Shown: positions 53,540 through 54,454 of the stretch, one piece after another
How the letters are laid out: each line of letters opens with the position of its first letter
Numbering within the stretch: the first letter of the stretch is position 1
Assembly (NCBI GenBank): GCA_010093705.1
Contig: MU006107.1
Coordinates: 41,611 to 105,610 of the forward strand
DNA from: Patellaria atrata CBS 101060
Lineage: Eukaryota > Ascomycota > Dothideomycetes > Patellariales > Patellariaceae
Length of the DNA stretch: 64,000 bases
Direction of reading: 5' to 3'
Notes under the pieces: model-generated
Seen by the model: the letters and a program-made list of their open reading frames with translations, nothing else
What the model was told of the DNA's origin: nothing
The model's database searches: none
Program-made: the position numbers and the translations under genes

Positions 53540-54454
53540 ATGATGAGGAGAGCGATCACACGAGTCCCGGTGCAGGCGAGCAGAGCTCTCCGCACCACCA
53601 CTGCGAGCCCGGCGATGAATGCGACGAGGACGGTGACGGTGACTGCTCAACAGACACAGAGCAGGAGGAGCTATCATGAGAAAGATAAGTCGAATTCTTT
53701 TCCTTTCGATCTCCAAAGAAGAGGTTTCGACGATGTGGCGGACGTGGCGGACGGGCGATATGTGAGAGCGAAGTTTGGCGTCTCTCTCTCTCTCTTTCTC
53801 TCTCTCGATCTCTACATCCCCCATCCCGTCTACCTGTTATACCGTGCCGTATCTCCTCCAACCTTAACAGTTTCATGTCTTTGTTTTGTCCTTTGGTCTT
53901 CCCAAACACCTTAAGCTAACACCCCCAAACTGCTCGACCACTACTCCCGCCCCCGCAACGTCGGCTCCATGCCCAAGGACGCGGCGGACGTTGGCACCGG
54001 CCTCGTCGGCGCCCCCGCCTGCGGCGACGTCATGAAGCTCCAGATCCGCGTCGACCCGGCCAGCAACACGATCGCCGACGTCAAGTTCAAGACGTTCGGC
54101 TGCGGCTCCGCCATCGCGAGCTCGAGCTACCTCACAGAACTGGTCCGCGGCATGACGCTCGAGGATGCCGGCAAGATTCGGAACACGGAGATCGCGCGGG
54201 AGCTTTGTTTGCCGCCTGTCAAGCGTGAGTTGTTGCTTTATCCTTCCTGTGTTAGCCTTTTGGTCTTTGGGAGGATGTAGGGCTGATACGAAGTCGTAGT
54301 TCACTGCTCCATGCTCGCCGAGGACGCCATCAAATCCGCCATCTCGAATTACTATTCCAAGAACCCGAAGGCGCGAAAGACGGATCTCGGGGCCGCTGAC
54401 GCCTCGATTCCGAAAGTCGAGGTCGAGACAGTTTCTGCTTCTTCGCCCGCGTAG
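53540..54454 (+). CDS. ISU1: Mitochondrial iron-sulfur cluster assembly scaffold Isu1
   Basis: Exons 53540-53684, 53931-54224 and 54300-54454 give 197 aa. Isu1 is the scaffold on which [2Fe-2S] clusters are built in the matrix. The N-terminus is Arg/Thr-rich (RRAITRVPVQASRALRTTTA) and fits a mitochondrial presequence. The mature part has SYHEKVLDHYSRPRNVGS, GTGLVGAPACGDVMKLQI with the first cluster cysteine, KFKTFGCGSAIASSS with the second, and CLPPVKLHCSMLAEDAIK with the Ssq1-binding LPPVK and the third. The second intron is ordinary GT...AG (75 bp). The first intron is not: only an AT...AC pair gives the conserved HEKVLDHY. A tail of about 25 residues (KTDLGAADASIPKVEVE) extends past the usual end. 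Two adjacent ATGs at 53540 and 53543 are both possible starts. Confidence 0.93.
53685..53930 (+). other. Putative AT...AC intron in ISU1 (246 bp)
   Basis: It begins ATAAGTCG after codon 48 plus one base (AAA G), and ends CCCCCAAAC before TGCTCGAC, giving the Val codon G/TG. A consensus branch site GCTAAC (53915-53920) lies 11 nt before the end. The donor matches the U2-type consensus GTAAGT except for its first base. A CT-rich run fills 53781-53817. At 246 bp it is more than twice as long as any other intron modelled here. Confidence 0.7.

Follow-up and report, generated by a model that had tools for sequence, protein, structure and literature searches.

The gene at positions 53540-54454 (+ strand) of the window, which is the whole 64,000-nucleotide stretch of Patellaria atrata CBS 101060 DNA analysed here, is ISU1. 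It encodes the mitochondrial iron-sulfur scaffold and is composed of three exons and two introns. P. atrata is a dothideomycete, and its placement among the Leotiomycetes in an earlier note on this DNA was wrong. The features of the gene are listed below, where P0012 denotes the public protein M501DRAFT_997730.

53540..53684, + strand: ISU1 exon 1, with the mitochondrial presequence, SYHEK, and the first base (G) of a Val codon, from translation
53685..53930, + strand: ISU1 intron 1, AT-AC, 246 nucleotides, phase 1; no other join in the scanned range yields SYHEKVLDHYSRPRNVGS; in agreement with P0012
53685..53690, + strand: 5' splice site ATAAGT, U2-like, with G at +5 and one mismatch to GTAAGT
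53912..53914, + strand: in-frame TAA inside intron 1; intron retention would give a 124-residue product without the Isu core
53916..53920, + strand: putative branch site CTAAC, with the branch A at 53919, 11 nucleotides before the intron end
53929..53930, + strand: 3' splice site AC
53931..54224, + strand: ISU1 exon 2 (VLDHYSRPRNVGS ... LCLPPVK), from translation
54225..54299, + strand: intron 2, an ordinary GT-AG intron (GTGAGT...TAG) of 75 nucleotides, kept by the public model P0012
54300..54454, + strand: ISU1 exon 3 (LHCSMLAEDAIK ... to the TAG stop), its end reckoned from the 197-residue product

The fully spliced product is 197 residues in length. Its best match among solved structures is 5t0v ("Iron sulfur cluster assembly protein 1, mitochondrial", E 3e-60), and the Pfam family NifU_N matches P0012 with 139.4 bits. 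A profile search found a single NifU_N match in the 28.3 Mb P. atrata genome, so ISU1 must be spliced to yield Isu. The ISU1/ISU2 pair of yeast is essential, and human ISCU may carry an intron at the same residue. A scan of viral contigs for relatives kept 80 loci with 55-72% identity in the best segment, which were taken to be bacterial or phage IscU.

The junctions of the first intron read AAAG/ATAAGTCGAA ... AAGCTAACACCCCCAAAC/TGCTCGACC, with the intron extending from 53685 to 53930. All donor positions between 53651 and 53760 were joined to all exon restarts between 53881 and 53945, with any dinucleotides allowed, and within this range SYHEKVLDHYSRPRNVGS is restored by the 53685/53930 join only. 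The bases flanking the two junctions differ, and therefore the junction position cannot slide. The restored motif, YHEKVLDHY (residues 45-53), does not vary across an alignment of P0012 with 13 relatives, 14 sequences drawn from 120 listed hits. The pattern HEKV[LIV]DHY is present in 117 of the 120 listed proteins, P0012 included; the others read HERVLDHY (two proteins) and HPKVIDQY (one protein). The AT-AC intron in ISU1 described in the earlier note is thereby confirmed, with its coordinates, length, and ends exact.

Alternative joins were tabulated for seven dinucleotide pairings, including GT-AG, GC-AG, GT-AC, AT-AG, AT-AA, GA-AG, and AT-AC. The only tabulated GT-AG pairs in frame to DHYSRPR are GTTTCG at 53724-53915 and GTGCCG at 53844-53915, and one GC-AG pair (53778-53915) preserves SYHEK. 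With any of the three, HEK and LDHY become separated by foreign residues. The earlier note had named GTTTCG as the sole GT donor that keeps phase; it does keep phase, at the cost of the foreign residues, but GTGCCG keeps the frame as well. No GT...AG pair in the tabulated pairings or the join scan restores both the conserved frame and the motif. The candidates of the six other pairings and the other AT-AC pairs were rejected, as a single join yields the conserved motif. A GT-AG candidate at 53639-53723 (GTGACT...GAG, score 14.4) has no branch site and was rejected for removing SYHEK. An antisense origin was rejected from the sequence, since the reverse complement of AT-AC is GT-AT, which is not a canonical intron. 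A stwintron was rejected by reasoning only: its outer ends would still need the standard form.

P0012 shows 100% identity over 74% of the query and is the only such protein among the matches listed. It matches the AT-AC join without a single difference in 164 of 164 residues, and the exon 1 translation is identical to its residues 1-48. Intron 2 is retained in the public model and is read into at the C-terminal end. The annotation itself looks truncated, as retention of the GT-AG intron at 54225-54299 gives a wrong C-terminus in which LHCSMLAEDAIK is lost. A model that splices the AT-AC intron yet keeps the canonical intron 2 looks transcript-derived, because a homology-led model would have continued into the conserved LHCSMLAEDAIK, and because common ab initio gene finders are not known to propose AT-AC introns. 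From this odd structure, the most probable basis of P0012 is an assembled transcript that still contained intron 2.

P0012 and the window share one assembly, and therefore the protein cannot tell against sequencing errors in the first and last bases of the intron. Two such errors in an intron with true GT-AG ends are very unlikely. The end bases are known from this one assembly, common to the window and the public model, which leaves room for such errors; they would nevertheless have to strike exactly the first and the last base of the intron, and would have to yield A and C, the sole pair known to work. A genuine private double change at the intron ends is compatible with splicing of the AT-AC intron by the major spliceosome.

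The internal signals of the intron are those of the U2 type. The first AG downstream of the branch A is at 53976, within exon 2, and none lies between the branch site and exon 2; the AG at 53915 precedes CTAAC. When the window was scanned for GT-AG introns no longer than 160 nucleotides, 42 candidates of mixed quality emerged. The branch distance is 9-12 nucleotides in the five with a GTAAGT donor, which the 11 nucleotides of the ISU1 intron fit, and 7-38 nucleotides over the full set of 27 in which a branch-like site was seen, many of these being doubtful. The joint chance of ATAAGT, CTAAC with its A 9-14 nucleotides from the end, and AC at forced boundaries is about 3.5e-8, computed from window frequencies and with the 9-14 nucleotide range chosen after the sequence was seen. 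The intron thus combines AT...AC ends, a donor with G at +5, and a branch site of the U2 type shortly before the 3' splice site, the traits of U2-type AT-AC introns. No unusual RNA folding of intron 1 was found (z -0.22).

The genome contains five U1-like loci (L008-L012), two U2 genes, and two U6-like genes. The U1-like loci are all below the curated cut-off and have a standard 5' end that reads ATACTTACCT, with L010 read on the complement. No variant U1 fitted to ATAAGT is present among these five loci. L008-L012 also share the 5' end ATACTTACCTTCTTGG, again with L010 on the complementary strand.

One U6 snRNA gene (L007 1501-1640, C1:675328 onward) matches its 105-position model up to position 63. 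It is apparently split by an mRNA-type intron (GTAAGT...GCTAAC...TTAG) that bears a B-box-like GTTCGAATCC. A U6 intron of this mRNA type is known in fission yeast. The second U6-like gene (L006 1501-1597, C1:639983-640079) is intronless, scores 59.8 bits, and is missing two bases of ACAGAGA. A T run is present, with a B-box-like AATTCGACTCC downstream, and the gene is either a pseudogene or a diverged U6.

The genome search for U11 and U12 snRNAs proposed in the earlier note gave no match at E<=1 in a loose first look, and the same holds for U4atac; the 14 control genomes are all prokaryotes and provide no positive control. U6atac gave four matches, none of which reaches the 33-bit cut-off. 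The best, at 27.3 bits, falls on the U6 gene at C1:639983, and the others score 16.7-18 bits. U1 itself is below its cut-off, and therefore a diverged minor snRNA could be missed by these searches. Searches with two protein families of the minor spliceosome, CCDC84 and Ubiquitin_4, the latter of which we take to be the SNRNP25 domain, returned no match in the genome and none in the controls either.

Removal of the intron by the minor spliceosome as a U12-type AT-AC intron is highly improbable. The AT-AC ends and a CACCTTAAG stretch ahead of the intron end are in its favor. The donor ATAAGTCG does not read RTATCCTT, and ATAAGT lacks the U12 ATATCC, which bears out the earlier note's view that this donor does not fit U12. 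The likeness to a U12 branch site reported there is present but weak: CACCTTAAG departs from TTCCTTRAC at three positions, the closest 9-mer within the final 40 nucleotides departs at two, and 8.9% of random 40-nucleotide stretches of the window match as well. A relic of a U12 branch site was rejected on this ground, as the likeness is not above chance. U11, U12, and U4atac are unmatched at E<=1 in the searches above, and the best U6atac match is a U6 gene. Two surveys also speak against minor splicing in Ascomycota. The accessible part of one, covering more than 3000 eukaryotes, reports no convincing minor introns in this phylum (PMC10639083), and the accessible part of the other lists Ascomycota among the losses of the minor spliceosome (PMC2846911).

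A GT-AG, GC-AG, or AT-AG intron that ends at the AG at 53915 and leaves extra residues before LDHY has an equally negligible probability: the GTTTCG, GTGCCG, and GC-AG pairs above and an AT-AG pair at 53685-53915 are all in frame, but with every one of them foreign residues would interrupt a block that does not vary among relatives, the AG is upstream of the CTAAC branch site, and P0012 does not use it.

Further AT-AC introns in the genome were sought with the short-intron pattern ATAAGT-CTAAC-AC, which excludes lengths like that of the ISU1 intron and covers short introns only. The pattern has 192 genome matches against 447 for a reversed control pattern, and therefore there is no excess of the short AT-AC pattern. 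One hundred of the 192 places, as 80 stretches, were scored for coding on both sides; these gave 122 pairs and 82 donors, with 31 pairs open. The seven best distinct donors were read singly. Three of the seven scored above the 6.0 of ISU1 itself, and the other open pairs scored below 0. No further convincing short AT-AC intron is present among these seven best donors from 100 of the 192 places. For the candidate in L077, an overlapping GT-AG intron is the better explanation, with which the receiver domain scores 57.6 instead of 51.5 bits. Those in L037 and L063 are open exons that can be read straight through, and the proteins at L019, L031, L076, and L061 are not recognizable by inspection.

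Taken together, the first intron of ISU1 has AT-AC ends and is very probably removed by the major (U2) spliceosome, a reading of the splicing chemistry drawn from sequence. The U2-type AT-AC interpretation in the earlier note is supported by the unique motif-restoring join, the match to the public protein, the presence of U1, U2, and U6 genes, and the lack of a minor snRNA above cut-off in the genome searches. In the proposed mechanism, U1 would pair with ATAAGT at every position except the first, and U2 would pair with CTAAC, selecting the A at 53919. U6 would read the AGT at +4 to +6 of the donor. The second splicing step would use the AC at 53930, with no AG past the branch site, and the first A and last C of the intron would replace the usual G-G contact.

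A broader form of this explanation holds that the AT-AC intron is ancient and became trapped in U2 form after the fungal lineage lost its minor spliceosome, that it is kept at the same position in the ISU genes of related fungi, and that its slow splicing throttles Isu production, with retention giving the dead 124-residue product. This is very unlikely. A route of U12-to-U2 conversion is proposed in the available text of PMC2831892.

The ISU1 intron is a clean case: it lies in a core gene, its AT-AC splicing is apparently obligatory, and the searches turned up no minor snRNA in this ascomycete. The intron may also serve as a natural test of the contact between the first and last intron bases in the second splicing step. 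Here a gene finder that accepts GT-AG and GC-AG introns only would get a core gene wrong.

The literature search for an AT-AC intron in ISU1 returned no match. Among annotated fungal splice sites, AT-AC accounts for 0.019% of 2,302,340 pairs in the accessible part of one compilation (PMC7072748). The ISU1 intron is a further example of the already known class of U2-type AT-AC introns. U2-dependent AT-AC introns exist in vertebrates, such as intron 21 of human SCN4A, and the sodium channel cases have a G at +5, as described in the part of PMC2831892 consulted. These AT-AC II introns share with the P. atrata intron the AT-AC ends, the +5G donor, and U2-type splicing (PMC2831892), which in P. atrata is assigned by sequence signals. 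Unlike SCN4A intron 21, the P. atrata intron resides in an iron-sulfur scaffold gene, and its host is an ascomycete whose genome yielded no minor snRNA.

C. elegans seems to lack U11, U12, and U4atac, and at least 42 of its 59 AT-AC introns were judged real according to the available text of PMC3033335. These are likewise attributed to the U2 spliceosome (PMC3033335). C. elegans differs in being a nematode, and the likeness is one of intron class.

Another close system is yeast, an ascomycete that has no minor spliceosome. There AT-AC is reported to rank next to GT-AG in efficiency, and in the accessible text one non-coding protointron uses AT-AC while no standard intron normally does so (PMC6726248). 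The SUT635 protointron and mutated yeast introns, like ISU1, represent use of AT-AC by an ascomycete major spliceosome without U12 (PMC6726248, available part). In SUT635 the intron is a non-coding protointron and GT-AG is used too, whereas in P. atrata the AT-AC junction is apparently the sole one and lies in a protein-coding gene. In P. atrata, a different ascomycete, the ISU1 intron appears to be a standard intron of the AT-AC kind.
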